Assembly (NCBI RefSeq): GCF_013407925.2
Contig: NZ_CP060201.1
Span: 248,001-312,000 of the forward strand
DNA length: 64,000 nt
Origin: Pseudomonas protegens
GTDB taxonomy: Bacteria > Pseudomonadota > Gammaproteobacteria > Pseudomonadales > Pseudomonadaceae
Direction of reading: 5' to 3'
Shown here: one piece after another, positions 43,982 through 63,879 of the stretch
Layout of the letters: each line of letters starts with the position of its first letter
Position numbering within the stretch: position 1 is the first letter of the stretch
Position numbers and translations under genes: made by a program
Notes under the pieces: generated by a model
Database searches by the model: none
What the model was told of the DNA's origin: nothing
Seen by the model: only the letters and a program-made list of their open reading frames with translations

Positions 43982-44196
43982 CTGTGAATCCTCGTCGCGG
44001 TGCCACACCGGCAGGCGCCGGCACGGCCCTTTTTTATTGTTGTGAGGTTCGCGCCAAAAGCGGGCGCAGGTCGAAGCTACTGCAAGCCTTAGTAAAAAAA
44101 CAAGTTGATTTTTTACTGGCGGTAAATTTTGATAGGCCAACAATAACAACGCCAAGGCTGTGCTCCCCTGCCCTTGGCCCGCCTGGAGTCACCGCA

Positions 44197-46149
44197 ATGA
44201 CCAGCGCCTTCCCGCACCTGTTCGCACCCTTGCAGATCCGTGGCAAACGCCTGAAGAACCGCATCATGTCCAGCGGCCACGACACCTCGATGCCCACCGA
44301 TAACCTGGTCAACGAACAGCTGATTGCCTACCACCGCGCCCGGGCCGAAGGCGGCGTCGGCCTGATCGTGCTGCAGGTGGCCGGGGTCCACGACAGTGCG
44401 CGCTACACCAGCCACGTGCTGATGGCCACCGACGACGCCTGCATCGACGGCTACCGGCGCCTGGCCGAAACCTGCCACGCCCACGGCACCGTGGTGCTGT
44501 CGCAGATCTTCCACCCGGGGCGGGAAATCATGGAGTCCGCCGATGGCCTGCTGGCGGTGGCCTACGCCCCTTCGGCGGTGCCCAACGAACGCTTCCGGGT
44601 CATGCCCCGGGCCCTGGACCAGGACATGATCGACGAGATCATCCAGGGCTACGCCGACGCCGCCCGGCGCCTGCATCAGGCCGGGCTGGACGGCGTGGAA
44701 CTGGTGGCCAGCCACGGCTACCTGCCGGCGCAGTTCATCAACCCGCGGGTCAACCGCCGCACCGACGGCTACAACGGCGAACTGGAACAGCGCCTGCGCT
44801 TTATCCGGGAAATCCTCGGCGCCATGCGCGCCAGCACCGATGCCGACTTCATCATCGGCCTGCGGATTTCCGCCGATGAACGCGACCCCGAAGGCCTTAC
44901 CGAAGACGAATCCCTGGCCGCCGTGCAATTGCTGCAAGGGCAACTGGACTACGTGCACATAGTCGCCGGCACCTCCGCCTCCCTCGGCGGCGCGGTGCAC
45001 ATAGTCCCCCCCATGGCGGTGGAAGCGGCCTATCTCGCCCGGGAAGCCGGCACCTTCAAGGCCGGGCTGTCGATCCCGCTGTTCGTCACCGGGCGCATCA
45101 ACCAGCCCCAGGAAGCCGAGGCGATCATCGCCAAGGGCCAGGCCGACGTGTGCGGCATGACCCGCGCGCTGATCTGCGACCCGCAAATGCCCAACAAGAG
45201 CGACAGCGGCCGAGCCGAGGACGTGCGCGCCTGCATCGCCTGCAACCAGGCGTGCATCGGCCACTTCCACAAGGGCCTGCCGATCTCCTGCATCCAGCAC
45301 CCGGAAACCGGCCGCGAACTGCTCTACGGCCAACCCAAGCCCAGCGCCCGCGGCAAACGCATCCTGGTGGTGGGCGGCGGCCCGGCCGGGATGAAAGCCG
45401 CTACGGTGGCCGCCCAACGCGGCCACCGCGTGACCCTCTACGAAGCCAGCGCGCAACTGGGCGGCCAGATTCAACTGGCGCAACTGCTGCCCCGGCGCAG
45501 CGAATTCGGCGGCGCCAGCACCAACCTGCAACGGGAAATGCAACTGGCCGGTGTCGAAGTGGTGCGCAACACCCGGGTCGACCGCGCCCTGATCGAGCGG
45601 GAAAACCCCGACCACGTGATCATCGCCACCGGCGCCCAGCCCTACTGGCCGAACTTCGAACGCGGCGGCGACCTGCAAGTGGTGGACGCCTGGCAAGTAC
45701 TGCGGGACGAAGTGCAACTGGGCCGCAGCGTAGTGGTGGCCGACTGGCGCTGCGACTGGATCGGCCCCGGCATCGCCGAACGCCTGGTACGCGCCGGGCA
45801 CCAGGTGCAACTGGCGGTCAACGGCACCCACTGCGGCGAAAACCTGCCGCTGTACGTGCGCGACCAACTGGCCGGCGAACTGCACAAACTGGCGGTCCCA
45901 ATCATTCCCTACGCCCGCCTCTACGGCTGCGACGACAGCACCGTCTACCTGCAACACACCGCCAGCGGCGAACCCATGCTGCTGGAAAACGTCGACAGCC
46001 TGGTGCTGTGCCAAGGCCACCAATCCGTGGACGACCTCGGCCAGCAGCTCAAAGGCCTGGTGCCCTTCCAACGCATCGGCGACTGCCTGGCACCGCGCAC
46101 CGTGGAAGAAGCCATCCACGAAGGCTTGAAAGTCGCCTGGGCGCTTTGA
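44197..46149 (+). CDS. Old-yellow-enzyme-type FMN/FAD/Fe-S oxidoreductase
   Basis: A 650-residue enzyme of the 2,4-dienoyl-CoA reductase / trimethylamine dehydrogenase family. N-terminal TIM barrel (FAPLQIRGKRLKNRIMSSGHDT, ASHGYLPAQFINPRVNRRTDGY), a 4Fe-4S ligand set CIACNQAC..11..C (about residues 346-365), and FAD/NADH domains starting ILVVGGGPAGMKAA. Start at 44197 gives the normal family N-terminus. Likely removes N-methyl groups or reduces a double bond; PA4986 is similar in place. Substrate unknown. Confidence 0.85.
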   Translation: MTSAFPHLFAPLQIRGKRLKNRIMSSGHDTSMPTDNLVNEQLIAYHRARAEGGVGLIVLQVAGVHDSARYTSHVLMATDDACIDGYRRLAETCHAHGTVVLSQIFHPGREIMESADGLLAVAYAPSAVPNERFRVMPRALDQDMIDEIIQGYADAARRLHQAGLDGVELVASHGYLPAQFINPRVNRRTDGYNGELEQRLRFIREILGAMRASTDADFIIGLRISADERDPEGLTEDESLAAVQLLQGQLDYVHIVAGTSASLGGAVHIVPPMAVEAAYLAREAGTFKAGLSIPLFVTGRINQPQEAEAIIAKGQADVCGMTRALICDPQMPNKSDSGRAEDVRACIACNQACIGHFHKGLPISCIQHPETGRELLYGQPKPSARGKRILVVGGGPAGMKAATVAAQRGHRVTLYEASAQLGGQIQLAQLLPRRSEFGGASTNLQREMQLAGVEVVRNTRVDRALIERENPDHVIIATGAQPYWPNFERGGDLQVVDAWQVLRDEVQLGRSVVVADWRCDWIGPGIAERLVRAGHQVQLAVNGTHCGENLPLYVRDQLAGELHKLAVPIIPYARLYGCDDSTVYLQHTASGEPMLLENVDSLVLCQGHQSVDDLGQQLKGLVPFQRIGDCLAPRTVEEAIHEGLKVAWAL

Positions 46150-46222
46150 GGCTGCTTTATACTCCAGGGCTTTTGCAGGACGGGTGCCCGGACGCGCCCG
46201 CCTTCCAGGCCTGGAGCCCGCC

Positions 46223-46849
46223 ATGAACCCAAGCAGCAAGACGCCGCCCGCGAGCACCGCGCCCGAGCCCGGCAGCGACAACCAGGCCCCTGGCGGCCCG
46301 CAGTTTCTTGGCACCCGCATCCGCGGCCTGCGCAAACGCCGCGGCCTGACCCTGAGCGAACTGGCGCAACAGAGCGAACTCACCGCCGGCTACATCAGCC
46401 AACTGGAACGCAACCTCGCCTACCCCTCCATCCCCGCCCTGTTCAACATCGCCCGCAGCCTGGGCGTGACCATCCAATGGTTCTTCGCCAGCGAAACCCA
46501 GACCGCGCCCGAGGATCAGGGCTATGTAGTGCGCAAGAAACAGCGGCTGCAGGTGAATTATGAGAACGGGATTATCGATCAACTGCTGACCCCGCAACCG
46601 ACCCGGCAGTTGGAGTTTTTGCACTCGCGGTTTCCACCGGGGACCTACAGCAAGGAGAGTTACAGCCATGAGGGCGAGGAAGCCGGTTATGTGCTGTCGG
46701 GGAGCTTTGAGCTGTGGGTGGGGGAACGGTATTTTCAGCTGAGTGAGGGGGATAGCTTTAGTTTCTCCAGTCAGGAACCGCATAAGTATGGGAATCCTGG
46801 GGAGGAGGATGCGGTGGTGTTGTGGGTGATTACGCCGCCGACGTTTTGA
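46223..46849 (+). CDS. XRE-cupin transcriptional regulator
   Basis: A 208-residue regulator. HTH at about residues 30-85 (GTRIRGLRKRRGLTLSELAQQSELTAGYISQLERN), and a C-terminal cupin at about 130-205 (GEEAGYVLSGSFELWVGERYFQLSEGDSFSFSSQEPHKYGNPG). PuuR-like family; the cupin should sense a small ligand from the neighbouring amine/amino-acid pathway. GGAG lies upstream of 46223. The 3' end is repeated three times downstream (47.35, 50.34, 52.26 kb), marking an insertion hotspot. Confidence 0.87.
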   Translation: MNPSSKTPPASTAPEPGSDNQAPGGPQFLGTRIRGLRKRRGLTLSELAQQSELTAGYISQLERNLAYPSIPALFNIARSLGVTIQWFFASETQTAPEDQGYVVRKKQRLQVNYENGIIDQLLTPQPTRQLEFLHSRFPPGTYSKESYSHEGEEAGYVLSGSFELWVGERYFQLSEGDSFSFSSQEPHKYGNPGEEDAVVLWVITPPTF

Positions 46850-47037
46850 GGGTTGGGGGACAAGCTACTTTCGACCTCGCAGACTGGAGGTCTGTCTCTA
46901 CTAGAGACTAGGATCGAGTAGTCAATATCTGATGAATAAGGTCGAAATTGATCTACCAAGGCACTGCTTGAATCGAGGTGCCACCGAACGACAGCCGTCT
47001 ACCACAAGACGACGTTTGACGAGGATACATAGCGACT

Positions 47038-47328
47038 ATGGAAGGCACTGCGCTCTGGCTTTTTGATGCTCCACCGAATGTTGCCTGCCTCACTGTGCGG
47101 TCAATTCTTGATGGTCATAAACCTATTCTTGCTGTTGTCCGAGACTTCGAAGACGGAGCATGGTCATTTCTAACAGGCGAAGACATCGAGATGGCTGACG
47201 CTCTTCTCGTATCCTTAAAGTCTATAGTCGAACTTGATCCCAGTATCATTGACCTGGCTGACCTTCAACCTGGCTGGACTGCAGTTCGCAGCCACCGCGA
47301 TATGCCATGGCAGAGAGCAATCAAATAG
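47038..47328 (+). CDS. Imm33/DUF2185-like immunity protein
   Basis: A 96-residue protein. Its middle and end (GAWSFLTGEDIEMADALLVSLKSIVELDPS and LADLQPGWTAVR ... PWQR) follow the pattern of DUF2185/Imm33-type immunity proteins, in which a W.FL.G motif is followed by SL...DPS...LADLPPGW. No toxin gene lies beside it, so it is an orphan. Lower GC than the chromosome. It lies between the intact cupin gene and the first partial copy of its 3' end. Confidence 0.65.
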   Translation: MEGTALWLFDAPPNVACLTVRSILDGHKPILAVVRDFEDGAWSFLTGEDIEMADALLVSLKSIVELDPSIIDLADLQPGWTAVRSHRDMPWQRAIK

Positions 47329-47350
47329 TCTGCTGCGAATATCGTTAGCC

Positions 47351-47600
47351 GATCCGCCAGTTGGTGTTTCTGCACTCGCGTTTTCTGCTGGGGACGTACA
47401 GCAAGGAGAGTTATAGCCATGAGGGCGAGGAAGCCGGGTATGTTCTGTCGGGGAGTTTTGAGCTGTGGGTGGGGGAACGGTATTTTCAGCTGAGTGAGGG
47501 GGATAGCTTTAGTTTCTCCAGCCAGGAACCGCATAAGTATGGGAATCCTGGGGAGGAGGATGCGGTGGTGTTGTGGGTGATTACGCCGCCGACGTTTTGA
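47351..47600 (+). pseudogene. Partial copy B of the XRE-cupin gene 3' end
   Basis: From about 47356 to the stop at 47600 the sequence matches the last 245 or so bases of the cupin gene, in frame to the end (VFLHSRFLLGTYSKESYSHEG ... VLWVITPPTF), with a few changes. No HTH part and no start of its own. Marks the end of the first inserted module. Confidence 0.85.
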
Positions 47601-47651
47601 GGCGAGCTACTGAGCGGAAGCGCAATGCACCGCTCTTTCGTTTACTGAAAA

Positions 47652-47933
47652 CTAGCTGTCACGGACTGGGAAGTAGAACTGCTGCCGCAACCACTCGCTG
47701 AACTGGGCCTCGGTCAGCGGAGCGCGTTGCTCGCCCATTTCATCCCACGCGCGATTAATCATGTGTTCCCAGTTTCGGGCGACTTCCATGAGTGGCGCTG
47801 CTGCTCCCCAAAAATGTCCGGCCTCAAGTGTTGCCCTGACTCGACCGTTTAGCTCAGCGAGGGTGGCGGTGCCTTCCAGATAGCGCCGCCCGGCTTCTAG
47901 CAATTTTCTGAATTCGGTGATTTCAACGGTCAT
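47652..47933 (-). CDS. Hypothetical protein, possible orphan immunity protein
   Basis: A 93-residue helical protein (EFRKLLEAGRRYLEGTATLAELNGRVRATLEAGHFWG, NWEHMINRAWDEMGE, AQFSEWLRQQFYF). No family I can name. Size, isolation and the repeated partial copy of its 3' half at 50549-50690 fit an immunity gene passed between modules, but there is no toxin beside it. Read towards the partial cupin copy, 51 bases away. Confidence 0.6.
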   Translation of the reverse strand: MTVEITEFRKLLEAGRRYLEGTATLAELNGRVRATLEAGHFWGAAAPLMEVARNWEHMINRAWDEMGEQRAPLTEAQFSEWLRQQFYFPVRDS

Positions 47934-48659
47934 GTCTGGTCCCTTAAACAGAGCGTTTGGATAAGCAGCCTTTAGATTGATGCGGAGGATATCTACTCTT
48001 CTGTTATCACTTCACCCGGGGCTAGCATAGTTGTGTGCAGCACCATCTCTACTTGCGACTAAAAGCGGTCATCTCTTTTGAGCAATTAAGGTCAATTCAG
48101 CCAGCACCTGAGTCCTCATGTGGGCTCAGAGCTCCAAAGCCAACGGCTAAGGAAGACAGGGAGACGTAACAGCCACCCTAAGTCCATGGAATACTTTGAA
48201 ACGCTGAATCAATTCAAATATCCAGATGACCACTGTGCTGGGAATACCGATCGATGGGAAAATAGTAGGTAGCACAACCCTTCATGGGTAGACACCATAG
48301 CTATTCGCAACTCTAGCCCCCTCCCCCAGCGCTTCAGTTGCCGGCTTTGGACCCAGCGGCATGTTCAAAATTTAATATGGAACTGTCAGCGAACTCGCTT
48401 AGCAGTTCCTTAACACCATACAGGCCATCTGGATCAGTTCCATGCGCCGTAGCTCAATAACCTCCGAAATACGAGTAAGTCGCCCGAACATCCTCTGTTC
48501 GAAGTCGATCAAGCATTGCCATAACCTCCCAAGGAAACAGCATGCCTATTCAAACTTGGCCGCTGAGCTGACCAGAAGCGTAGCGGATGTCCATCCGATG
48601 TCAGTGTCCACTGAGATCGGGACAGACCATATCTGTAACCCGAGATTGAAGCTCGCTGA
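47934..48659. other. Gene-poor stretch in the island
   Basis: 726 bases without a gene I can support. A 28-codon frame (48185-48271) begins MEYFETLNQFKYPDDH and looks like the worn start of a lost gene. No repeat or strong hairpin seen. Confidence 0.5.
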
Positions 48660-50111
48660 TTAATAGACCGAAGCGCTGGCCACTTTCATCCCAATATTTG
48701 ATTTACGCGAGTCAATGCATGCAGCTATGCCGGATGCAGTGTTGTACTCATAGGGTGCGGCGCTATCAACTGACAAAGAATTAATTATGGATAGCATTCC
48801 GCCCTCATACTCTTCCGCACTGTACTCCTTATCTATGACGGCTTCAAAGTACAGCGTCTTATTCGACACCCGATCAAACATAATAAAATTAACTTTATTC
48901 TTCTCAAGAAACTGATAACAGAAAGGACCCACTATATTAGGAAGCGCTACAAGTTGACCGACAGACCTCACCGGCAACAGTGCGCCCTTGTCGAAATACA
49001 AGGTTGATTCCGTTGTAATTTTAGAATAACCCGACTGATTGAGATTTGAAAGGAAACTTGGATCACGACGAAAATCAGGTCTTGGAGCATCATTAAACAC
49101 TACATACTCCTTAAGCTCGAAAGTCACAACCTTACTTATATCAGAATCATTAAAACAACTGAGCAAATGAAGCCTCGTTTGTTTTGGCGAGTAATTGTGC
49201 AACAAGTGGCTTTCGAGTAGGGCTCTCATGTCCTTTTCGTTTAGGGCCAGAGAGAAATTGCTGCGCAGCTCATTACACTCGATGCGCAGTCTGTCAAACA
49301 CATCGCCAACCGCTGCGCCTGGACCAGCCCTATAGTTTTCAATCACGCTTTGTGCCGAAGTTCCATCAGCCCTGTATGTTGTTGTCATCACAGAGCTTGG
49401 TCTTTTCCCATACAGTCGACTAGGTTGTTTGACAACCGTCATATTAAGTAAGTCGTAGTGCTTGCTTGCAATCTTTGCACTTAGCTGAAATCGAGTAGCT
49501 CCCGCTTCGTTAGGAAGCCTGATTTCAACTTGATGCAAGTCTTTCGAGCTAAGCGAAGCCTGAACAACTTTATCGAACTTTTTAGCAAGCATATCCACTA
49601 AGGCAGAGGTGGCACCAGACAAAACAGGGGCAGTGCCTAGGGCACTAACACTCTTGCCTATATCACTTAAATCTTGTAGCGCACCAATTTCAGCCTCGTC
49701 ATTATACAGCAACGTCACTATAAATTTCCTATTCGTCTTTCGCGCAAGCTCTAGACCGGATAGTTCGCTTTCAATAGAGTATGTTTTGTTGCATGCTTTA
49801 TTTTTCTGGTCGTACGTGTACGAGACGTAAGGAATTTTATTAATCGTTATCGTTAAAATTGATTTCTTGCTAGACGAGAAAAAATTCCGAACGAATGCCC
49901 GACTAAAACTATCTCGACAAAAACCTTCTCCATTGAAAACAGAGCTAATGATAACCTTTTGATACTCCTCATCATCTAAAGGCTTCTCATCCAACAGGGC
50001 GAGATTCAGCTCTACTTTCTCCTTCAGGCTATATGATCCCGTATCGGAATATACTTGGGTGCTCGATAGAGATATTAGTAAGCAAATAATTGCTGCGCAT
50101 ACTTTTCTCAT
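48660..50111 (-). CDS. Unknown exported protein
   Basis: A 483-residue protein. ATG at 50111 is taken for GGAGG five bases upstream and because it begins a signal peptide (MRKVCAAIICLLISLSSTQVYS, cut after YS or so). The mature part has no motif I recognise; it is rich in Ser, Lys and Asn, with a few cysteines (EGFCRDS, NKACNKT, IECNELR, GPFCYQF, AACIDS). GC is well below the chromosome, so recently acquired. No partner genes in an operon. A periplasmic or surface role is all that can be said. Confidence 0.7.
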   Translation of the reverse strand: MRKVCAAIICLLISLSSTQVYSDTGSYSLKEKVELNLALLDEKPLDDEEYQKVIISSVFNGEGFCRDSFSRAFVRNFFSSSKKSILTITINKIPYVSYTYDQKNKACNKTYSIESELSGLELARKTNRKFIVTLLYNDEAEIGALQDLSDIGKSVSALGTAPVLSGATSALVDMLAKKFDKVVQASLSSKDLHQVEIRLPNEAGATRFQLSAKIASKHYDLLNMTVVKQPSRLYGKRPSSVMTTTYRADGTSAQSVIENYRAGPGAAVGDVFDRLRIECNELRSNFSLALNEKDMRALLESHLLHNYSPKQTRLHLLSCFNDSDISKVVTFELKEYVVFNDAPRPDFRRDPSFLSNLNQSGYSKITTESTLYFDKGALLPVRSVGQLVALPNIVGPFCYQFLEKNKVNFIMFDRVSNKTLYFEAVIDKEYSAEEYEGGMLSIINSLSVDSAAPYEYNTASGIAACIDSRKSNIGMKVASASVY

Positions 50112-50335
50112 AGATCCCTCCATGATGACTTTGATAGGTAAATCCAAGTTTACGAAGCAGAGGTCGACGGTCGAATCTAACGATAGAGCAGATGTGCCAT
50201 AGCCGCATGCGATCATGCGCTTTTTTTAATGGGCCGCCCGTAGGTGAAGTAGCGTAGAGGGCAGAGCACTAGTCCTCGCCCCGATGGAGTGCCAAGTCAC
50301 GCAGGCTTTTTCAGCCCGGTGAGCCTCAAACGCAG

Positions 50336-50498
50336 AGTTATGCTGTCGGGGAGCTTTGAGCTATGGGTGCGGGAACGTTATTTTCAGCTGAGTCAGGGGG
50401 ATAGCTTCAGTTTTTCCAGCCAGGAATCGCATAAGTATGGGAATCCTGGGGAGGAGGATGCGGTGGTGTTGTGGGTGATAACGCCGCCGACGTTTTGA
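50336..50498 (+). pseudogene. Partial copy C of the XRE-cupin gene 3' end
   Basis: Matches the last 160 or so bases of the cupin gene (LSGSFELWVRERYFQLSQGDS to the stop at 50498), with changes such as G to R and E to Q. The homology to copy B continues past the stop for about 200 bases into a worn copy of the 47652-47933 gene. Confidence 0.85.
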
Positions 50499-50548
50499 GC
50501 GAGCGACTGAGCGGAAGCGCAATACACCGCTCTTTCGTTTACTGAAAA

Positions 50549-50690
50549 CTAGCTGTCACGGACTGGGAAGTAGAACTGCTGCCGCAACCACTCGCTGAAC
50601 TGGGCCTCGATCAGCGGAGTGTGTTGCTCGCCCATTTCATCCCACGTGCGATTAATCATGTGCTCCCAGTTACGGGTGAGCTCCATTAGT
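50549..50690 (-). pseudogene. Truncated copy of the 47652-47933 gene
   Basis: Encodes the last 46 or so residues of that protein (NWEHMINRTWDEMGEQHTPLIEAQFSEWLRQQF ...), then breaks off at about 50703. The overlapping gene 50670-51428 reads its own C-terminus through this remnant in another frame. Confidence 0.75.
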
Positions 50691-51428
50691 AGCGCTGCTG
50701 AGCTTTAGCCTTTCTATTGCCCTGGTGCATCCATGCTCGGCGGCTTTATTGAGACACCGCACCTGCTCTTGTTTAAGGTTTTGCGTCAACATTTGAGTCG
50801 CCATACTCATATAAAGGTTGGCGCGAAAACTTTTTTCGTCGAGTAACACGATTGGATTGCTGTCAGAGCGGCTATTTCTATCGCAACTCGGCATCATCGT
50901 TGGCTGGGGGTAGTACCTGCCATAGAGGGTTTCATCATTAGGCAACGCGTCGACAAGTGACCGATACCGAGGTGTTTTAACCTCATCGAAGCAGTAGAAA
51001 AGCATCTGCAAACCCGCTGGAGTAAATCCGTTACTGAAACTAGACTTTAGGAGAGTGCAGACTTTTTCGGCGACTTGATCGCGAGATTCAAAAGTCGACA
51101 ACATCAACGCTAGACGGTACTGCGCTGCTGGGTTGCCTTCCTCAGCTGAACGCTTGAGCAAAGGCATTCCTTCTTTTATAAGCCGAAGCATTTCGTCTCT
51201 ATATTGTTCTTTTTTTTGGTCGGGAACCTTTTCGTTGACTGCTAACTGCTTCCGAAACGTGAACATATCGTTTTGTGCTTCATCGATTTTTTCTAGGTAA
51301 GGCAGCGCTTTGAAGTACAGCTCTTCGCTTTCTGCGGACACTTTTAAATTATTTTCATTCGCGCTTGCGAATGTGGCTAAAAAAACAGAAACAACAGCCA
51401 AAAAACTCTTAAGAGAAGCTTTTTCCAC
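50670..51428 (-). CDS. Sel1-like periplasmic protein with chimeric C-terminus
   Basis: A 252-residue protein. GTG at 51428 is preferred over upstream ATGs as it begins a signal peptide (VEKASLKSFLAVVSVFLATFASA) and has AAGGA eight bases upstream. Residues about 75-110 contain a Sel1-like unit (MPLLKRSAEEGNPAAQYRLALML), and a second worn one lies near the end (NKAAEHGCTRAIERLK). The last few residues (NGAHP) are read from the repeat remnant at 50549-50690, so the native end is lost. Role unknown. Confidence 0.6.
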   Translation of the reverse strand: MEKASLKSFLAVVSVFLATFASANENNLKVSAESEELYFKALPYLEKIDEAQNDMFTFRKQLAVNEKVPDQKKEQYRDEMLRLIKEGMPLLKRSAEEGNPAAQYRLALMLSTFESRDQVAEKVCTLLKSSFSNGFTPAGLQMLFYCFDEVKTPRYRSLVDALPNDETLYGRYYPQPTMMPSCDRNSRSDSNPIVLLDEKSFRANLYMSMATQMLTQNLKQEQVRCLNKAAEHGCTRAIERLKLSSATNGAHP

Positions 51429-51620
51429 TGGGAACGTCCTTTGTATCTTCGTTGTGATTACGATTGCGGCTGAATCGTCCATACATTGGTAGAGAACAGA
51501 ATGAGTGCTTCCAACGGCCCTGCTGCCTTTCATCACAGCGACTATAAGCAGCCGAATACTGCATCATCTGAATGGGTCTCGGTGCGAACCAGAGGGTTAA
51601 TATTTTCATTGATTATTCTT

Positions 51621-52076
51621 TTAGATTTCTTCCTTTAACATAGAAAGCAAATCTGAAAATGAGTCGGCCACATAAAATATCCCTTCTTGTACTTCCAACT
51701 CATGAAAATAGAAAACCACTTTTGGAAATAGAGGACTTTCAGAGTAATCAAAGCACAGATAATCACCGCCACCACCCACGACAATAGGCAGATAGTAATT
51801 TGGTAGCTGATGGTGATTTCGCAACGAAAATAGAGCTGTAACGATATTCTCGGCGCTGTGTAAAGGGTCAAGAGTCAAAAGCATGCCGAAGCCGATATCC
51901 CATGTTTTACCACCAACCTCAATGGACAGGCTTCGGTCTTTCGGCTGTCCACCATGAAAGCGTTTTACGCATTCAACGTAATCTTTCGGCAGCGTGAAAC
52001 GGATAACTTTTTCGATGCCAGCAATCAAATCATCGGACAACGGCTCATGCGCATCTGAATAGACATCCCACTCCAT
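51621..52076 (-). CDS. SMI1/KNR4-family (SUKH) immunity protein
   Basis: A 151-residue protein with the SUKH pattern: IEKVIRFTLPKDYVECVKRFHGGQP near the start, then FGMLLTLDPLHSAENIV, LPIVVGGGGDYLCFDYS and FYFHELEVQEGIFYVADSFSDLL at the end. The family neutralises many polymorphic toxins by direct binding. GGAGG seven bases upstream. No toxin gene near, so an orphan immunity gene. Lower GC. Confidence 0.85.
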   Translation of the reverse strand: MEWDVYSDAHEPLSDDLIAGIEKVIRFTLPKDYVECVKRFHGGQPKDRSLSIEVGGKTWDIGFGMLLTLDPLHSAENIVTALFSLRNHHQLPNYYLPIVVGGGGDYLCFDYSESPLFPKVVFYFHELEVQEGIFYVADSFSDLLSMLKEEI

Positions 52077-52258
52077 CAGCGAACCTCCATTTAACTATTA
52101 TCAGGCGACATTGCCAGTGCAGCATATTACCAATATTCTCATACTCACATTAAGCATATCTTTTGTTGCATAACATCCAAAGCGATGTTCAATCACTTCT
52201 GAATGTCCTTTATTGGCAGAAAGCAGCCTCAGCAACCAAAAAATTCCTCCTACCATCT

Positions 52259-52699
52259 AACTGGAACGCAACCTCCCCCCACACCGAACTATTTAACTTC
52301 GCCTGCAGCCTGGGCGTGAACATCCAATGGTTCTTCGCCAGCGAAACCCAGACCGCGCCCGAGGATCAGGGCTATGTGGTGCGCAAGAAACAGCGGCTGC
52401 AGGTGAATTATGAGAACGGGATTATCGATCAACTGCTGACCCCGCAACCGACCCGGCAGCTGGAGTTTTTGCACTCACGCTTTCCGCCGGGGACGTACAG
52501 CAAGGAGAGTTACAGCCATGAGGGGGAAGAAGCCGGGTATGTGCTGTCGGGGAGTTTTGAGCTGTGGGTGGGGGAACGGTATTTTCAGCTGAGTGAGGGG
52601 GATAGCTTTAGCTTCTCCAGCCAGGAACCGCATAAGTATGGGAATCCTGGGGAGGAGGATGCGGTGGTGTTGTGGGTGATAACGCCGCCGACGTTTTGA
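52259..52699 (+). pseudogene. Partial copy D of the XRE-cupin gene
   Basis: The longest of the three extra copies. From about 52305 to the stop at 52699 it is almost identical to the intact gene (SLGVNIQWFFASETQTAPEDQGY to VITPPTF). From 52259 to 52305 the match is worn and out of frame (AACTGGAACGCAACCTC is kept). The HTH region is lacking, so it cannot be a working regulator. Confidence 0.85.
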
Positions 52700-52790
52700 G
52701 GGGGATGTTGAGTGGGGTTAACCGAACGGCTGCTACCGGCCAGCAGCGGATTTACTGCCAATCGATTTTTCGAGCTTTGCGCTAAAAAGC

Positions 52791-54332
52791 TTAAGGCAAC
52801 ATGCGTGATATCTTATTTTTTAAGTCGTCAAACTCTTCAGGAAAATTTTTATAAACAATACCGCAGACCAGTATTAAACAACGTTCAGGATCTAGATTTA
52901 CTTGCTCACCCACTTCGACAAATTCTTCATGCTTACCTGCCTGTAATGCGTATTCGACGATTTCGGTAGCGCGCTGAGGTTCAACGCCTAGCTCAACTCC
53001 TAGTTCGTGCGGGATTTCGCTACACTTTTGCAAAAGCCAGGCTTCTGGCCATGTGTCGCCAGGAAGATAACCTGTGCGCGCAAGCAACCAATTATTAATA
53101 TCAACATCTTTCCTCTCTGCCATGTTTTTGGCGTGCTCGATATTCTTCGCCTGCAATTTTTTCTGATCAGCATCATATATAGCCAATATATTTGCACTCT
53201 CATCTCTCAAAAAATTTGCTGCTAACTGGCGAGCTACTGCAGCGGCGGAGCCTATCCGAGTGATATTTATTCGACTGCGTACGCCTCCATTTAAAATTGT
53301 TTCAATTATAACTTTTGCAACTGGATCCTCAACAAATATCTCAAGTTCTTTCTCACCAATAGCTCCCATTTTTGAGAACGCAAATTCCGCTGATATACCG
53401 GGAGTTATTTTTGTCTTAAGCCCGGCTCTTTCAATAAAAAACCTGGCATCATCAGGCAAACATTGAAATATTTGCTTTGAGTGCGTGGTGCATATAACTT
53501 GAGTCCCCGTACTCATACATACTTCTTTAAGACGCTCCATAAACAACCTTTGAGCTCTTGCATGTAGACCAAGCTCAATTTCATCAAGAACCAACAAAGC
53601 TCCCTCGCCAGAAGCATATATGGTAGAAAAAATATAAAAAAGCGCGTTTTCACCTGCGCCCATATTGAAGCCAGAGTAAACTACATCACCAACCTTAACA
53701 ATCGGAAGACCGTATTTTCTGTACTCTAACTGTCGATAATCATCGTAACGTTTACCAAGGATATAACCAACAGCGTCTTTAACCTGCTGCTCCCAGCCGT
53801 GAACTCTCAAATCTTTAAAGGCTCGCGAATAAGATCTTGATTGACTACGTTCAGCGTGAGGGACAATTCGTTCAATACCCAAAAAAACTACCGTCCGTTT
53901 TACTCTGATGTCATAGTCGTTCCATTTCCCACCTGCCTTTTTCTTTCTTACTTGGGACGCGATCCCATCAGGCGCACTTTTCCAATTATTGTGAGCAAAG
54001 CTATACCAGATCTCTACTCCAGGAGGAGCAATTTCCTCCGAGTGCTGCACAAAAAAATCAGAAAAAGTGTAATAGCTCCTACTTCGCTTTGGAAGTTTAA
54101 AACCATCCAGCTTGTTATGATAAGCACAAGCGGCGAGCGCCAGCATAGTTGACTTCCCGGACCCATTAACTCCGGCAAACGCAGTTATCGGGTAGTCGAA
54201 ATTCACCTTGAATGACGTCAGCCCGCGAATGCCGCCCGTTGAGATTTGAATACTCCGAAGTAAGGCTTTGGTATTATCCTTGCAGAACCAATTTCGTAAT
54301 TTCTTATCTAAATTACTTTCCCTGTACTTCAT
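52791..54332 (-). CDS. OLD-like ATPase with TOPRIM domain, putative defence protein
   Basis: A 513-residue protein. ATG at 54332 is taken for GGGGAGA five bases upstream. N-terminal ABC-type ATPase: Walker A GVNGSGKST (about residue 50-58), an ABC-like MGAGENALFYIFS signature, and Walker B LLVLDEIELGLHARAQ. From about residue 335 a TOPRIM-like domain follows: EIFVEDPVAKVIIE and ILAIYDADQKK. This is the architecture of OLD nucleases and of fused PARIS-type proteins, which act against phages. It stands alone, AT-rich, in the island. Which subtype cannot be told here. Confidence 0.8.
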   Translation of the reverse strand: MKYRESNLDKKLRNWFCKDNTKALLRSIQISTGGIRGLTSFKVNFDYPITAFAGVNGSGKSTMLALAACAYHNKLDGFKLPKRSRSYYTFSDFFVQHSEEIAPPGVEIWYSFAHNNWKSAPDGIASQVRKKKAGGKWNDYDIRVKRTVVFLGIERIVPHAERSQSRSYSRAFKDLRVHGWEQQVKDAVGYILGKRYDDYRQLEYRKYGLPIVKVGDVVYSGFNMGAGENALFYIFSTIYASGEGALLVLDEIELGLHARAQRLFMERLKEVCMSTGTQVICTTHSKQIFQCLPDDARFFIERAGLKTKITPGISAEFAFSKMGAIGEKELEIFVEDPVAKVIIETILNGGVRSRINITRIGSAAAVARQLAANFLRDESANILAIYDADQKKLQAKNIEHAKNMAERKDVDINNWLLARTGYLPGDTWPEAWLLQKCSEIPHELGVELGVEPQRATEIVEYALQAGKHEEFVEVGEQVNLDPERCLILVCGIVYKNFPEEFDDLKNKISRMLP

Positions 54333-54744
54333 TGGTTCTCCCCACAATTAATTAACACCGACTGAAGGACTGCATGGCCATTTGCTATTCCTAGCACAAT
54401 TTTTGGAGACTATCGAGCCGGCTATGAAACTTTTCCATGACGTAAATGGGGAGGCTATGGTAACTCCCCTGTTCAAGACAGCCGACGGGCGGCGCCAGCC
54501 ACTCCTTACCATCAACAGGTTGAACTAATAGGTGAACGGAGCCCCGGCGCTGAGTCAATTTAATGCTAGATACGCCTTAAATTTGTCTGTAGAAACGACA
54601 AAGGCTAGGATCTTCCCTTGCGATCGGCCACGCACAGTTCTTTGCAGAAAACTTGAGGACAAGCTTTAACCGGTTTGTCCCCTCGTCCCTCGACCATCCA
54701 CCGCCCACTAATGGCAGGCTAGCGACGGCCGGCCTCGACCGTCG
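54333..54744. other. Gene-poor stretch between ATPase and recombinase remnant
   Basis: 412 bases with no gene I can support. A 34-codon frame (54424-54528, MKLFHDVNGEAMVTPLF ...) reads like a protein start and may be a remnant. Confidence 0.4.
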
Positions 54745-55193
54745 CTATACATATTCAAACCTCAGTCGTTCCGCCATCTCCAGGGCGTCATCAACTTTAA
54801 TTCCCAGATATCGAACGGTGCTCTCCAGCTTCTTATGGCCAATAGCACTTGAACTGCTCGCAGATTCTGCCTCCTGCGATAGATCAGCAATGCCTTCGTA
54901 CACCTCATTGTGTGAGTGCCATACATAGCTAGATCTAGGCCAACGGCCTCCACCCAGCCTTTGACAATCCGAGCATATTGACGTGTGGATAGATGGTCTG
55001 AGGTATGCAGTTGGCTCGAAAAAAGGCAGTCCTCGCTGCGGACTTGGGCCTGACATATCCAGGCCGCGATAGCAAACCGTGTTTGTTCGGTGATCTCAAA
55101 CTGCACTGGCCGCTGCGTCTTCTGACGCATCACCAATACTCTTGGTGATTCGTGCTCGCCATGGGCGAGGTCACACACGCACGGCCAACTCAA
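54745..55193 (-). pseudogene. Broken tyrosine recombinase
   Basis: Two overlapping minus-strand frames together give a tyrosine recombinase end. Frame 1 (54762-55193) has QKTQRPVQFEITEQTR, LSTRQYARIVKGWVEAVGLD and YGTHTMRCTKALLIYRR; the catalytic HxxR box reads HTMRCT. Frame 2 continues with IGHKKLESTVRYLGIKVDDALEMAE, which holds the second histidine and the tyrosine. A frameshift of unclear position joins them, and the N-terminal part is missing. It probably moved part of this island. Confidence 0.8.
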
Positions 55194-55241
55194 AATACCT
55201 GAGCAGCAGAAGGCTGTTTTATAGATAGATGCAAGTCACCT

Positions 55242-56786
55242 TTACCAACCCCACTTGAGGCGATCATATAATGAAACTAATTTTTTAAAATATGAGGCAT
55301 AGGGGTGGCTTTCAAATTTATCTTCGTTGGCGACCAAAAAATCTCTGAGTTGATCTAGGTTGATCTGATCCTCAGGCAGGAAGGGGATTAATGTTGCAGC
55401 ACTTTCAGGCGGGCAGCCTTTGATTATTTCTTCCATGGTCTGCCCTTGGCGTTTAGTGAAGGCAGACTTGAAGGTTTTTAGACGTAAATTTTCACGATTA
55501 TATTTGGCCCACTTGTTTAGCCTGAGCTCACTAGCTTTATAGCTCTCCTCATTAGTGATCCCTATTTCTCTCAGATACTTGTAAACAGGAACATAAGGAG
55601 TGTTCCGCCCAGCCCGCGGAATTGTTGAATGGAGAATCTGTGCAGGGTCATAGTTACGATCTTCGAATAGTGCATCATGGATCAAATCCCGCACTTCAGG
55701 TGCATCATAGCCAACCTTGGCGATTTCGCTTGGTTCGCCTGCGGCTAGCCCGACACCAACGATAAACTCAACATCTTCTTTGTTCTCAATTTCATCTATA
55801 CCTACAACGCATAGCTTCTTTTCTGGCTCAAGAGAGCGAACCAATTCGTAGAGTTGCTCTTTGCAGTAGCGGAGAACTCGTGCGGGGATCTTTCTTCGAG
55901 TTGCTGAAAGTGCTTTATAAACTTCGGTAAAATCGTCTGTCTTGACAAGAATCAGAGGAATTTGAACTTTATCTATTGTGAGGTACGTATCCGATACACC
56001 AGGGCTCTCGCCGTTTTTAGGGCGTTGGACGAAAATTAAATTGCTACGTAGTTGCTCAATTTGGTCCTCGCCGATACAAAGAGAAATAGCACGTAACAAG
56101 CCTGTTATATTAGGGTCGGATAGTGAGTAGCCCAAGAAAATTACAGGATGCTCCACAAATACGGTGATCAGTTTAGCGGCAAGGTAAGCGTTGCGTTCAT
56201 TAAAGGTGGTGTAATCGTCAGACGTAAGTACGAGTGATTGTGGCTCAGTGGCACACCCATGAATCTTATAGATTTCGCATATTTCCTGGGGATTGGAGAA
56301 CAGCAATTCATTTTGCCCAATAAAAACCTTGTAGTCTGGAAAGAGCTCCTCTAAAAAAAGATCCCAATTCGTGGTTATGATACCGTCGACATTTAGGCTT
56401 GATAATAGTTCTACCTCCTCCCTGTAGCCGTCATTGAGTGCTGCGCTAGGGTCTAGCTTAGCTAGGTAGTTACAGATTTCAATTCGCAGTGCAGAACTAC
56501 TGTCTTTTATCTTGTCTTTATTCAGGCTGACACTTTCTGAATAAGTTGGCGAACCCCACCAGTAATTATGAAAATCGTTTGCTAGAATTTTGGCAGCGAC
56601 AGGCGTATTGCCATCGGCACTTCCTCGATAAAATTCATATGGTTTCCCCATTTCACAAAATCGGGATAGAAGGCCTTCCCAGCTTTCCAGTCCAATATAC
56701 CGGCGAGAAAAACCTGAGCCGATGAAAAGAAATGCTCCAGCAGCTCGGTCTTTTAGAATTTGGGTAAGATGGTGCTCGATCGTCAT
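55242..56786 (-). CDS. Stand-alone SIR2-family protein, putative defence NADase
   Basis: A 514-residue protein. N-terminal SIR2 domain (about 1-260): FLFIGSGFSRRY for NAD binding, GIITTNWDLFLEELF, the catalytic-His type YKIHGCATEPQS, and PVIFLGYSLSDPNITGLL. The C-terminal half (about 290-514) has no motif I recognise. SIR2 proteins of this form act in phage defence by depleting NAD. There is no HerA, Argonaute or other partner beside it. Start has a weak ribosome site. AT-rich relative to the chromosome. Confidence 0.82.
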   Translation of the reverse strand: MTIEHHLTQILKDRAAGAFLFIGSGFSRRYIGLESWEGLLSRFCEMGKPYEFYRGSADGNTPVAAKILANDFHNYWWGSPTYSESVSLNKDKIKDSSSALRIEICNYLAKLDPSAALNDGYREEVELLSSLNVDGIITTNWDLFLEELFPDYKVFIGQNELLFSNPQEICEIYKIHGCATEPQSLVLTSDDYTTFNERNAYLAAKLITVFVEHPVIFLGYSLSDPNITGLLRAISLCIGEDQIEQLRSNLIFVQRPKNGESPGVSDTYLTIDKVQIPLILVKTDDFTEVYKALSATRRKIPARVLRYCKEQLYELVRSLEPEKKLCVVGIDEIENKEDVEFIVGVGLAAGEPSEIAKVGYDAPEVRDLIHDALFEDRNYDPAQILHSTIPRAGRNTPYVPVYKYLREIGITNEESYKASELRLNKWAKYNRENLRLKTFKSAFTKRQGQTMEEIIKGCPPESAATLIPFLPEDQINLDQLRDFLVANEDKFESHPYASYFKKLVSLYDRLKWGW

Positions 56787-56975
56787 GTGGGGTTAGCCTC
56801 GTATCCTTTAACGGATGTAGTCCATTTCTACCGAAAGCGTATCAATAGGAGAATTTAATCCGAAATGAGCTTCGCTGGATATGCCCTAGCGTGCTTCGAT
56901 TACCGCAATGTGTAGCTGTAGCTAGCGGCTCGTGGCGAAGGGCAGCTTTGGATCGAAAACACCCTCTCAAGTAAC

Positions 56976-57014
56976 AGAGACACCGCTTATCAAGCAGCGA
57001 TAAGCGGTGTCTCT
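56976..57014. terminator. Strong hairpin at the island's right side
   Basis: Perfect 16-base stem AGAGACACCGCTTATC / GATAAGCGGTGTCTCT with a seven-base loop. It lies 22 bases past the stop of the DUF3077 gene on the minus strand and is probably its terminator. T-runs on both sides are weak. Confidence 0.65.
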
Positions 57015-57036
57015 CTCAACTTCATGCGATGCTGCC

Positions 57037-57330
57037 CTAACTCAGAGCCCCTCCCTCAGCCCCTCTTCCCCCCAACCCCAAACACACATCATCAATCACC
57101 GCCTTACCCATCTCCGCCAAAAAGTGCGAGGCCCAAGCATAGCGTTCCCCCTGCTCTTCCATAGCGGCATCAAGTGCAAGTTTCTTGGCGTAGTACAGCA
57201 AAGTAGAGGCGTACTCCAACGCAAGCTCCAAAGGCACGTCAGCATTCACGCGAAACAGCTCTAGTTCAGGATCGGCACAACTGCCAAAGGTGACGAAACC
57301 CAGTGTCTTGACTGAAGCTGAAGTGCTCAT
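57037..57330 (-). CDS. DUF3077-family protein
   Basis: A 97-residue protein of the Pseudomonas DUF3077/DUF6124 type: LELFRVNADVPLELALEYASTLLYYAKKLALDAA and YAWASHFLAEMGKAVIDD. These are small helical proteins in several copies per genome, without known function. Its start overlaps the stop of a 90-codon frame in the structured leader region (ATGA). Confidence 0.8.
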   Translation of the reverse strand: MSTSASVKTLGFVTFGSCADPELELFRVNADVPLELALEYASTLLYYAKKLALDAAMEEQGERYAWASHFLAEMGKAVIDDVCLGLGGRGAEGGALS

Positions 57331-57641
57331 CGGACACCTCCTACAACAGCCAGGAGACGGGTGTTACGAAGGGAAGATCCACACAGATTACGGGCGTACA
57401 TGATTGAAACTCCCATATCGGTAATGAGAGCTGCCACCTTCGTTCTCAGGCGAGTGGGTGGCAGCTGTGCGCGGGCTGAGAAACCGGAGATACAGGAACC
57501 CGGCAGACCCGAAGGTCTCCCACGCACAGCCGCCATAACACGAACAGACGGGCACAAAAATGCGCCTGCATTCATGGGCGGGCGCTTGTGCGCCTGCATC
57601 TTACCGGGTTCTCAGGCCCGGTCGCTGATTTTGCAGCGACC
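57331..57641 (-). promoter_or_regulatory. Structured leader upstream of the DUF3077 gene
   Basis: Read on the minus strand the region holds GGTCGCTG-CAAAAT-CAGCGACC (57620-57641), two direct ATGCAGGCGCA units, an AGACC-TTCG-GGTCT hairpin (57505-57518) and a long pairing AGCTGCCACC / GGTGGCAGCT (57429-57466). A 90-codon frame (57327-57599) crosses it and overlaps the gene start. Similar sequence recurs before related genes in other Pseudomonas, as I recall. A cis-acting RNA or leader peptide is possible. Confidence 0.5.
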
Positions 57642-57721
57642 GCAGCAGACTAGGCGCTCTGCTCAGGGTCCGGCAACCGCTAAACCGTAGCCGGTTATGT
57701 CGCTCGGATTAGCGAGCCGTT

Positions 57722-58429
57722 ATGCTCTCCCCCACCCCGGATAAGGACATCTGCCCCCTCATGATCGACCGCGAACACCTCCATCAAAACGGTTACCTGT
57801 TGCTGCGTCAGGCGGTGCCCGCCGACTGGCTGGATGAGCTGCAGGCCACTTTCGAGGCAGGGGTGATTGCGCCCGAGCAATGGCCGGTGCCTCGGGGCCA
57901 CGATTGGCGTCATGCGCTGGTGGATCTGGGTGCACGGGTGCAGGCGGTGTGTCGCTTGCCGGCGCTGTTGGCGGTGGCCGGGGAGTTGATCGGGGAAGGC
58001 TTTTTTCTGGCTCAGGTGGAGGGCCGCGAGCCGTTGGCGGGGGGCGGTCATCAGGTATTGCACCGGGATCTGTCGGAGCAGCGTCTCGGTGACCGGGTCA
58101 CGGCGCTGGTCTATCTCGATGACTATGGGCCGGCCAATGGCGCGACGCGCATCGTGCCCGGCAGTCATCGCCCCGGGGAGCGGTTGGCACCCTTTGATTT
58201 CAGTGATGAATCCCGGGTGGTGCAACTGGCGGGCAATGCGGGGGACGTACTGCTGTTCGATGCCGATCTGGTGCATGGGGCCAGTCTGAACCCCAGTGGT
58301 GCGCGCCGTCGCAGCTTGCTGATCAGTTATTGCGCCCTGGGGCTGTATGAGCCCCATCTGCAGACGCTGGGCCTGCGTGCTATCCGCATGGACACCAGCG
58401 AGCGCTTCGAACCCGCGGATTTTGTCTGA
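57722..58429 (+). CDS. PhyH-family Fe(II)/2-oxoglutarate dioxygenase
   Basis: A 235-residue phytanoyl-CoA dioxygenase-type enzyme. Iron ligands are visible: HRD (after HQV, about residue 122-124) and the distal histidine in LVHGASLNPSG (about 192), with the oxoglutarate arginine in SGARRRSLL. DRVTALVYLDDY and IVPGSH are typical. Start could be 57722 or the ATG at 57761; neither has a good ribosome site. Substrate unknown. Confidence 0.82.
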   Translation: MLSPTPDKDICPLMIDREHLHQNGYLLLRQAVPADWLDELQATFEAGVIAPEQWPVPRGHDWRHALVDLGARVQAVCRLPALLAVAGELIGEGFFLAQVEGREPLAGGGHQVLHRDLSEQRLGDRVTALVYLDDYGPANGATRIVPGSHRPGERLAPFDFSDESRVVQLAGNAGDVLLFDADLVHGASLNPSGARRRSLLISYCALGLYEPHLQTLGLRAIRMDTSERFEPADFV

Positions 58430-58475
58430 GTGGGCTCGGGCGCGAGGGGTGCGTCAGCCAAAGCGTGGCGCTCAT

Positions 58476-58670
58476 TCAGTCGGCCAGGCGGCTGGCCAGA
58501 CGTTGCAGTGCCTGGGCCAGTTCCAGGGCCTGTTCTGCCGTCAGTTCCACCGGGTCGTTGTGCGGGCTGATGGCCTTGAGATGAATGGCACTGTCCTGCT
58601 CTATCCATAGGCGCACGGCGCCTTCGCTGCTCTCGAAATAATCCGTTGTGCGGTCAATCGGCATGTTCAT
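58476..58670 (-). CDS. Small hypothetical protein
   Basis: A 64-residue protein (DYFESSEGAVRLWIEQDSAIHLKAIS, then ELTAEQALELAQALQRLA). Beta hairpin followed by one helix. No family named. Start overlaps the stop of the next gene upstream by four bases, so the two are co-translated. Confidence 0.65.
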   Translation of the reverse strand: MNMPIDRTTDYFESSEGAVRLWIEQDSAIHLKAISPHNDPVELTAEQALELAQALQRLASRLAD

Positions 58671-58942
58671 TCACCTTGTGCGTGGGCGCTGGCCAGTTCC
58701 AGCAGGCGGGTGAAGTCGGCTATGGTGAAATACAGGTCATCGCGGGTGTCGCCGTCCCAGTCTTCGACGGCTTCCCTGTCTGCCTTGAGTGAGGCGATGC
58801 GGGTTTTGATCTCGGCGATTTCCGCCGCACCGCACTGGGTGGCGATGGCCTCCCAGCGTTCCTGGGGAATGTTTTGCTGGACCGACAGCCCGGCTCGGGC
58901 TTGGGCGATCAGTGCGGTGAGTTGGCTCATAGGGGTATTCAT
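58667..58942 (-). CDS. Small helical hypothetical protein
   Basis: About 91 residues from ATG 58942, or 87 from 58930, which has a better-spaced AGGA. Almost wholly helical (QLTALIAQARAGLSVQQNIPQERWEAIATQCG, EIAEIKTRIASLKADREAVEDWDG). Unknown. Pairs with the 64-residue gene downstream; both may form one complex. Confidence 0.65.
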   Translation of the reverse strand: MNTPMSQLTALIAQARAGLSVQQNIPQERWEAIATQCGAAEIAEIKTRIASLKADREAVEDWDGDTRDDLYFTIADFTRLLELASAHAQGE

Positions 58943-59250
58943 CCTGAAAATGCAGCCTTTGAATCGGGGCGCGGCTTGTGCGTTAGGCGCTTTGAGGCGG
59001 GTCACTTTATCGGGTTTAAGCCCAAACAACGACCTCAAGAGTGCAGCCAGCCCCATGTCCTCCACACCACTGGAGAACTCGTTGCCGGCGTCTCCCCCAG
59101 GGTGCCGACAAGGTCACATGTCGCTAAGCGTTCCGTGAATGCAGCGTGCGGTTCTCAACGACAAGGGCAAGGGTGTCCGAGCAACTGCCATGACAATCTT
59201 TGGCGTCCATAGCCGGGCAGTGCTGACCGGCTATGGGCGGATAGCGAACC

Positions 59251-60165: not shown

Positions 60166-60400
60166 TGAAAGTCTCCCGGGTGGTGGTCCTAGACTACCGG
60201 TGGCGACGTTTTGCCTTGCCACGCTTGCGACCTGTATTTAGCCGAGGGCGCAAAGAGTGTGCTGTTCGCGACAGGTCGGTGGCGGGTGAGTCCAGCGTGT
60301 GCGCCGGTTTTTTTTATCCCGCCTGTTGCCTTGGGTGCTTGGCAGCGCCGCACGGGTCGGCTTCAATAACCGCCCTTTTTCATATTCAGGAGCTAGAAGG

Positions 60401-60829: not shown

Positions 60830-60837
60830 GGGGTTGG

Positions 60838-60863
60838 GCGGGCGCTGAGGGTACAGCGCCCGC
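60838..60863 (+). terminator. Terminator-like hairpin
   Basis: GCGGGCGCTG (60838-60847) / CAGCGCCCGC (60854-60863), perfect ten-base stem and six-base loop, nine bases past the stop of the exported-protein gene. No T-run follows, so termination is uncertain. Confidence 0.5.
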
Positions 60864-61036
60864 TGATTCAAGGGCGGTCGCGGCCAGATGGCGGCGACCG
60901 CGTTGCTGGGAATGCTTCACTTGGGAGGTGGCGTTTTTGGGGCTGCTTCGCAGCCCAGCGGGAGCAAGCTCCCTCGCCACAACATCCGCTTGAGTCCCTT
61001 GTGAGGCGTTGCGGTTTTATCCGCTGTGCAAACCTC

Positions 61037-63220
<2,184 letters not shown>

Positions 63221-63808: not shown

Positions 63809-63879
63809 TATGCCTTTGGCATTCAGGGCCCCGCCTGAGCTGCGGGTGAAGCTGCGCAAGACCCCATCGGTTTGCGAGA

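Follow-up and report, generated by a model that had tools for sequence, protein, structure and literature searches.

Displaced 3' ends of an XRE-cupin regulator gene in Pseudomonas protegens point to repeated, homology-anchored capture of defence cargo

How do immunity and anti-phage genes come to lie in layers behind a housekeeping regulator gene, with copies of that gene's own 3' end between them? This question is raised by a 64,000-nucleotide stretch of DNA from Pseudomonas protegens (NCBI RefSeq assembly GCF_013407925.2, contig NZ_CP060201.1, positions 248,001 to 312,000, forward strand), here called the window, in which an intact XRE-cupin regulator gene has three partial copies of its own 3' end behind it. 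A first-pass annotation of this DNA offered two explanations: site-specific islands that restore the gene they enter, or recombination of incoming DNA through the shared gene end. Our analysis favours the latter, because the points at which the copies switch from decayed to fresh sequence are variable. We consider it probable that defence and immunity cargo was captured repeatedly at the XRE-cupin 3' end, without an integrase, anchored by homology on one side and joined at variable places on the far side. The locus is a readable record, with four layers, their join points and relatives that carry single layers.

The gene end and its displaced copies

The elements of the XRE-cupin gene in the window are as follows.

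46223 to 46849, plus strand: intact XRE-cupin regulator gene (c1; HTH_3 3.6e-11, Cupin_2 6.2e-21), left border of the hotspot and landing site
47349 to 47600, plus strand: displaced end c2, a decayed left arm and a fresh right part of about 211 bp
50341 to 50498, plus strand: displaced end c3, with a fresh right part of about 71 bp
52254 to 52320, plus strand: old, decayed left arm of c4, common to the window and to the related loci G429 and LD120
52321 to 52699, plus strand: fresh 3' part of c4, with 1 private substitution among its 379 sites

Partial ends at 47600, 50498 and 52699, all on the plus strand and open to the stop, had been noticed in the first pass, and a repeat search, alignment and a whole-genome search bear them out. 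The repeat search and alignment give a family (D1) of four 254-nt copies, at 46598-46851, 47349-47602, 50247-50500 and 52448-52701; the true alignment of the third is limited to its last ~160 nt, and c4 reaches further left, as far as 52254. Compared with the intact gene end, c2 is 94% identical, c3 94% (over 159 nt) and c4 95%. Across the whole genome (one contig of 6.82 Mb, with 14 of 14 candidates scored), exactly these four gene-end sites are found at E <= 0.001.

The frames of c2, c3 and c4 stay open to the stop over 79, 69 and 178 aa, as they would if the truncated copies were retained because they do something, perhaps acting as cupin-only modulators, the cargo being incidental. However, the frame is damaged in two related copies, by a 1-bp insertion in c4 of G429 and by a 1-bp insertion and an in-frame TAG in c2 of P. 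piscis, and no more than about 160 bp of the gene survive in c3; a retained function thus seems very improbable.

Moreover, the first 202 bp past the stop are common to c2 and c3 (47602-47803 and 50499-50700, 94% identical). Since these two share their flank as well as their end, the repeated unit is the gene end plus flank and not the gene end alone. The flanks in the window are of four types.

46850 to 46993, plus strand: flank type alpha, which PH1b and P. piscis have immediately after their intact cupin gene and G429 has after its c4
47652 to 47933, minus strand: gene A (93 aa), flank type A; in LD120, G061 and Au-Pse12, homologous DNA immediately follows the intact cupin gene
50499 to 50700, minus strand: A', a truncated gene A joined to a Sel1-like gene; 14B2 has the same junction directly behind the cupin gene
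52700 to 52750, plus strand: flank type beta, found again after c4 of LD120 and, as a 27-bp match with 23 identities, after the P. morbosilactucae cupin gene (L071)

The anatomy is therefore layered, and reads in order: cupin gene, alpha and an Imm33-like gene; c2, A and a putatively exported protein; c3, A', the Sel1-like gene and a SUKH gene; c4, beta, HEC-04 and SIR2. All four end-and-flank types sit right behind the cupin gene in some relative. In particular, A', Sel1 and SUKH directly follow the intact cupin gene in 14B2, which is the uninterrupted state of the c3 layer; the window segment that follows c3 matches it in two blocks, 1196 bp at 94.9% identity and 696 bp at 93.5%. As for beta, the P. 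morbosilactucae match (score 19) was equalled in 0 of 300 shuffles, as was that of LD120 (0/300), compared with 5/300 for the FD6 flank. It is short because the last cupin codons are deleted there and a DDE transposase gene comes next (L071:10600-11663), which leaves the regulator tail altered.

Mosaic structure of the displaced ends

The six displaced copies, from four genomes, are two-part mosaics. Private substitutions, scored against ten intact genes after removal of 12 edge bases and assessed by a permutation test, cluster in the left arm in all six (P = 0.0168, 0.0135, 0.0002 and, three times, 0.00005), and the switch lies at a different distance from the stop in each.

Window c2: switch 211 bp before the stop; private substitutions 5/29 left, 1/211 right
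Window c3: switch 71 bp before the stop; 5/75 left, 0/71 right
Window c4: switch 379 bp before the stop; 11/58 left, 1/379 right
G429 c4: switch 392 bp before the stop; 13/44 left, 5/392 right
LD120 c4: switch 385 bp before the stop; 14/53 left, 13/385 right
P. piscis c2: switch 146 bp before the stop; 8/34 left, 6/146 right

In the intact genes, private substitutions are spread along the sequence (41, at mean position 209 of 450; 17, with mean 224, when P. piscis is left out). In the window, each displaced copy joins a decayed left arm to a nearly pristine 3' end, and the varying switch speaks against a single att-like crossover point. The common crossover that aligning the copies was expected to reveal is not there, the switches of c2, c3 and c4 lying about 211, 71 and 379 bp before the stop.

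The left arm of c4 is shared between genomes: 12 derived bases occur in at least two of the window, G429 and LD120 copies, 9 of them in all three, against 1 in the right 379 bp. This combination of a shared arm with unshared right parts indicates that one and the same old arm carries, in each of the three genomes, another gene end that was functional until recently. In addition, in none of the six cases is the closest intact gene that of the same genome, so that copying inside one genome is an unlikely source, an argument that is weak for c2 and c3, where the margin is only 1-2 bases. Our own PHI-like script also gives a recombination signal at the gene end (P = 0.0025 for the ten intact genes with the c4 copies, 0.0005 for the nine without P. 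piscis).

Insertion at a gene 3' end with the reading frame kept is the classic mark of site-specific elements. Such elements, each entering at an att site in the gene end, restoring the gene and leaving the old end behind, could have produced these layers if their integrases were later lost. Two features fit that history: one broken tyrosine integrase lies inside the island, and the five copies from the window, G429 and LD120 each have at most one private substitution in their last 60 bp (4 in P. piscis c2). However, the switches, ranging from 71 to 392 bp before the stop and differing by about 300 bp in the window, do not define one fixed crossover core. No intact integrase was recognised in the island, the broken one lying to the right of c4. 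None was found in 32 island ORFs of nine relatives (20 + 10 + 2; ORFs below 70 aa were outside the scan), in whose islands two transposases, in G429 and LD120, are of DDE types; family scans of the window's and relatives' proteins recognised no intact IntI integron integrase either. Relatives of the broken integrase occur in 25 of 143 other genomes searched, and no cupin gene lies within 1.5 kb at 11 fetched loci of these relatives or at the window's own integrase locus. Furthermore, the right joints of the P. piscis and G429 inserts lack a gene-end copy. Site-specific entry is accordingly an unlikely explanation. Phage or plasmid carriers of the gene end, also considered, are not supported by database searches: at the sensitivity used, no phage record contained the cupin gene and viral contigs gave no match to its end, to gene A or to the cupin protein, and plasmids gave only 66-67% identical stretches on five Shinella/Sinorhizobium plasmid records.

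A defence hotspot in the subgroup

Is the array a peculiarity of one genome? A search for cupin loci matched 300 stretches, of which 261 were confirmed and the best 80 kept; among these 80, the closest named loci are those of P. chlororaphis 14D6, P. protegens FD6 and 14B2, and their relatives, which puts the window's genome into this subgroup. An FMN-oxidoreductase gene lies upstream of the cupin gene in 77 of the 80 named loci, and the three misses comprise two with less than 100 bp of upstream DNA and a paralogue (L120). Ten subgroup loci were compared (the window, G061, G429, 14D6, FD6, 14B2, PH1b, LD120, Au-Pse12 and P. piscis); L071 and the less similar L072, whose contigs end 1 kb and 0.3 kb downstream, were left out of the counts.

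The left flank is the cupin gene, by which the loci were found, in all ten. The right flank is a DUF3077-type gene in nine (Pfam was run on the window and G061), the DNA of LD120 ending inside the island. Homology to the window restarts at ~56940-57010, by the DUF3077 gene, in the eight relatives other than LD120, and the interval between the two border genes is 3.2 to 12.2 kb. The variable region is wider than c1 to c4, running from 46850 to about 56940 and continuing to the right of c4. For seven named subgroup loci, no more than one other named locus has the 3-5 kb that come first after the cupin gene, and in six of these seven sharing returns in later kilobases. In many other loci the first kilobase is common to up to 14 others. 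Since some loci outside the subgroup (for example L110, L116, L134, L135 and L141) share it with none, this measure alone is not diagnostic of the subgroup.

Cargo was identified with PADLOC (20 relatives' proteins and nine of the window) and Pfam (the 32 relatives' ORFs and 10 window proteins), copies of A, Sel1 and SUKH being recognised by alignment. PADLOC matches at E <= 1e-8 occur in eight of the ten loci and differ between them; 14B2 and 14D6 have none. Across the ten genomes the cargo turns over as follows.

Window: HEC-04 ATPase, SIR2 PDC-S25, SUKH and a weak Imm33-like gene
PH1b: type III-A retron
FD6: Olokun OloA/OloB
G061: PDC-M26A AAA protein and a DUF2357/PDDEXK protein (read as McrBC-like)
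P. piscis: putAbiC and an LmuB-like ATPase
14B2: CHAT/TPR protein, below the Pfam cut-off
14D6: AAA_16 protein, below the Pfam cut-off
Au-Pse12: type XI retron
G429: AriA/GajA-like ATPase, Cap4-nuclease/pentapeptide protein and DUF6119
LD120: Ppl-like ATPase and part of PDC-S06

Hence, the P. protegens/chlororaphis subgroup has a core-type defence hotspot here, which in the window runs from 46850 to ~56940 and is bordered by the cupin and DUF3077 genes, and the island of orphan immunity genes between c1 and c4 is only its left part. To call the cargo immunity cassettes, as was done at first, is too narrow, because immunity-like genes lie only between c1 and c4. The genes of the window's hotspot, besides gene A and A', are these.

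47038 to 47328, plus strand: small Imm33/DUF2185-like gene (weak; Imm33 E 0.0078, 16.5 bits, below the Pfam cut-off of 25.4)
48660 to 50216, minus strand: 518-aa protein, exported as judged by eye; a 25%-identical relative lies behind gene A in LD120
50670 to 51536, minus strand: Sel1/TPR-like gene (weak TPR match), also in 14B2, G429 and P. piscis
51621 to 52076, minus strand: SUKH immunity gene (SMI1_KNR4 1.3e-20), also in 14B2 and G429
52791 to 54347, minus strand: AAA ATPase, PADLOC HEC-04 (1.5e-47)
54745 to 55193, minus strand: broken tyrosine integrase, split over two frames (Phage_integrase 1.8e-07)
55242 to 56786, minus strand: SIR2 protein, PADLOC PDC-S25 (8.9e-188)
57040 to 57330, minus strand: DUF3077 gene, right border (8.3e-34); homology to relatives restarts at ~56940

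As first described, the modules are mostly reversed and AT-rich: of the five genes between c1 and c4 only the Imm33-like one is forward, and GC in 500-base windows is 0.40-0.58 in the island versus 0.59-0.70 upstream. The SUKH assignment made by eye is confirmed, the Imm33 match stays below its cut-off and the Sel1-like gene has only the weak TPR match. Neither gene A nor the 518-aa protein has a match in Pfam, NCBIfam or PADLOC. No tRNA that could serve as right border was found in 44000-64000.

Extra gene ends occur in four of the ten loci, three in the window and one each in G429, LD120 and P. piscis. Copies and cargo thus vary between relatives, which upholds the earlier view of the gene end as a repeated landing site and does not resemble a fixed ancient tandem duplication. 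In 71 named loci (L073-L143, each with 1.2-10 kb of downstream DNA) there is no second match above 42 nt other than fragments of that gene itself. In 14D6, a match of 70 bp (L064:17033-17102), first counted as a displaced end, was dropped as a remnant of a separate cupin paralogue, because the sequence after its stop matches the divergent full-length paralogue of P. morbosilactucae L120. The latter (L120:5006-5605; 81% protein identity) is a second full-length cupin gene; it lies in the right flank, with the DUF3077 side and PhyH as its neighbours. Short proteins resembling the c2 frame were found (13 of 14 candidates at E <= 1e-10), among them the 79-aa P0001 (95%), which has the FLLG change seen in c2 and differences further right, and the 107-aa P0002 (96%, 17 member sequences). 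They are a hint of recurring ends, and a contig edge could also yield them.

One may argue that the subgroup had an ancestral array of several ends and cargos, and that present loci arose from it mainly by deletion between direct repeats. A deletion between c1 and c3 in a window-like array would produce the 14B2 arrangement, and the Sel1 segment of the window, 14B2, G429 and P. piscis shows core-like divergence. Yet the largely different defence-type cargo of ten genomes would be much for one array to have held, and the right parts of c4 share almost no derived bases. In addition, the window, P. piscis and G429 carry three different inserts at the same joint of gene end and A'; their right joints lie ~160 bp before the stop in the window and about 20 and 27 bp after it in P. 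piscis and G429, where no gene-end copy is left. As the main source of present loci such an array is improbable, and loss by deletion between repeats probably occurs as well.

How the layers may have been stacked

Repeated homology-anchored capture would proceed in a few steps. Donor DNA from a related Pseudomonas would bring the cupin gene 3' end together with whatever follows it, and homologous recombination within the last few hundred bp would join the front of the recipient gene to the donor end and its cargo. The far side would be joined at a variable place, either by homology-facilitated illegitimate recombination or by recombination with an already displaced arm, and the recipient's old 3' end and old cargo would be pushed downstream. 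Each displaced end could then serve as a further landing site, so that layers of gene end and cargo would stack between the regulator and DUF3077 genes. The spread of switches over 71-392 bp before the stop fits homologous recombination with variable crossover, and the variable far joints fit homology-facilitated illegitimate recombination. We infer that the process would depend on RecA, and presume a delivery route for the DNA and a benefit from the cargo.

Several observations weigh against this reading or narrow it. Six of the ten loci carry cargo without an extra end, which means that a displaced end need not arise or persist. In P. piscis even the right part of the copy has diverged, with 6 private substitutions in 146 sites. 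The same PHI-like script gives P = 0.052 for all ten intact genes and 0.047 for the upstream gene, so the recombination signal is not special to the gene end. Between the window and G429, the Sel1-SUKH-c4 segment is 94% identical, a divergence similar to that of nearby core DNA (91-95%); the part of the array comprising Sel1, SUKH and the c4 arm is probably old, and single-copy relatives may have lost it by repeat deletion. Microhomology at the far joint, where illegitimate joining is presumed, would need donor sequences to be seen, and the sample is one of species representatives with no strain series.

Prophages and islands at gene 3' ends, such as e14 at icd, duplicate the gene end and keep its frame by means of an integrase and a fixed core. 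In contrast, switch points vary here and no intact integrase was recognised. In integron cassette arrays, the newest layer lies beside a fixed border and older ones are pushed away. More tentatively, the gene end could be an integrase-free counterpart of the integron insertion site, a RecA-operated cassette stacker and a general building mode of core defence hotspots without mobile-element genes, an idea we regard as possible but somewhat doubtful. If it holds, each defence package would bring a fresh anchor, several equivalent landing sites would exist, and cassettes could be added, shuffled and dropped between species. Unlike integrons, the locus has no recognised intact integron integrase, and its joining sequence is the end of a protein gene.

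The integron parallel is also drawn for type VI secretion system (T6SS) loci of Vibrio cholerae (PMC5361080). There, effector-immunity modules are sequentially displaced by incoming modules that use homology on one side as an anchor; the previous immunity genes are shifted downstream together with an effector 3' end, orphan immunity arrays result and simpler intermediates occur in other strains. The authors saw no evidence of an integrase and proposed a mechanism akin to homology-facilitated illegitimate recombination (PMC5361080). The present locus likewise has displaced 3' ends in the same orientation behind an intact gene and simpler states in relatives (14B2, and all four flank types). Unlike in Vibrio, where the cargo's own toxin gene is displaced, an unrelated XRE-cupin regulator is involved here, its protein remains complete and the cargo extends to anti-phage systems. 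Displacement of Rhs C-terminal ends also leaves strings of 3' ends behind an intact gene (via PMC5361080); those are toxin tips, whereas here they are copies of one constant regulator end. The displacement logic has been proposed for T6SS and Rhs loci, and would apply here at a housekeeping regulator gene.

Among defence hotspots, cDHS1 and cDHS2 of P. aeruginosa have conserved flanking genes, lower GC, very variable defence systems and no single mobile-element family, and their transfer by transduction and by homologous recombination in the conserved flanks has been suggested (PMC10250203). The present locus is similar in having the same two flanking genes across genomes and many different defence systems between them, and differs in that the cDHS flanks are MerR/DUF4011 and the tmRNA region and that the accessible part of that paper describes no displaced border-gene ends (PMC10250203). 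Hotspot assembly and flank recombination are named there as future work, and this locus bears on both. A general survey of small variable genome segments reports that about 10% are flanked by direct repeats, deletion between them being one source of variation (PMC2884548); in the portion available, repeated displacement of one gene end with defence cargo is not described. Nor are displaced border-gene ends in a defence hotspot described in the titles and abstract openings of the open-licence full-text literature searched. One mechanism would link toxin-locus displacement with defence hotspots, and two-part mosaic ends with shifting switch points offer a test applicable at any hotspot.

Other observations

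A palindrome, CTNYYGGCCRANAG, lies near several module joints (PH1b, P. piscis, G429 and 14D6). Because it was chosen after viewing these same joints, it was kept as a lead only and not used as evidence. It has 6 exact matches in 64 kb of island (plus 120 bp each) versus 0 in 128 kb to the right, and 14 versus 1 when one mismatch is allowed. A 16-mer form, allowed two mismatches, has 14 matches in the window versus 6.2 expected (1 of 100 shuffles had as many), and a related 16-mer has 29-46 forward matches per genome in eight genomes versus 6-13 for the reversed control. A palindrome like GCTATCGGCCAAAAGC lies close to many module joints, at 52732-52747 and in L146, L148, L149 and L151, and is rare elsewhere in these loci. 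Such palindromes are possible short-repeat recombination points, though picked with the joints in view.

Beside the right border gene, a C4 antisense RNA and its a1/b1 target lie on the minus strand at 57454-57540 and 57601-57653. Among seven relatives searched, a1b1 is present in seven and C4 in four; a phage-type antisense regulator is thus kept beside a defence hotspot, no prophage search having been made.

The last 210 bp of the cupin gene (46640-46849) are strongly G-rich on the coding strand, with a skew of about +0.4. The distribution is bimodal: this subgroup and about a dozen other named loci have the G-rich end, whereas most of the 80 have a skew close to 0. The G-rich end (skew +0.28 to +0.44 in the subgroup) does not suffice to explain breakage, because it also occurs in relatives without a detected displaced end (e.g. 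L074, L075 and L095). Finally, long antisense ORFs of up to 756 aa run over GC-rich core genes at 44113-46383 and in neighbouring frames; they are probably not genes and form an annotation trap.

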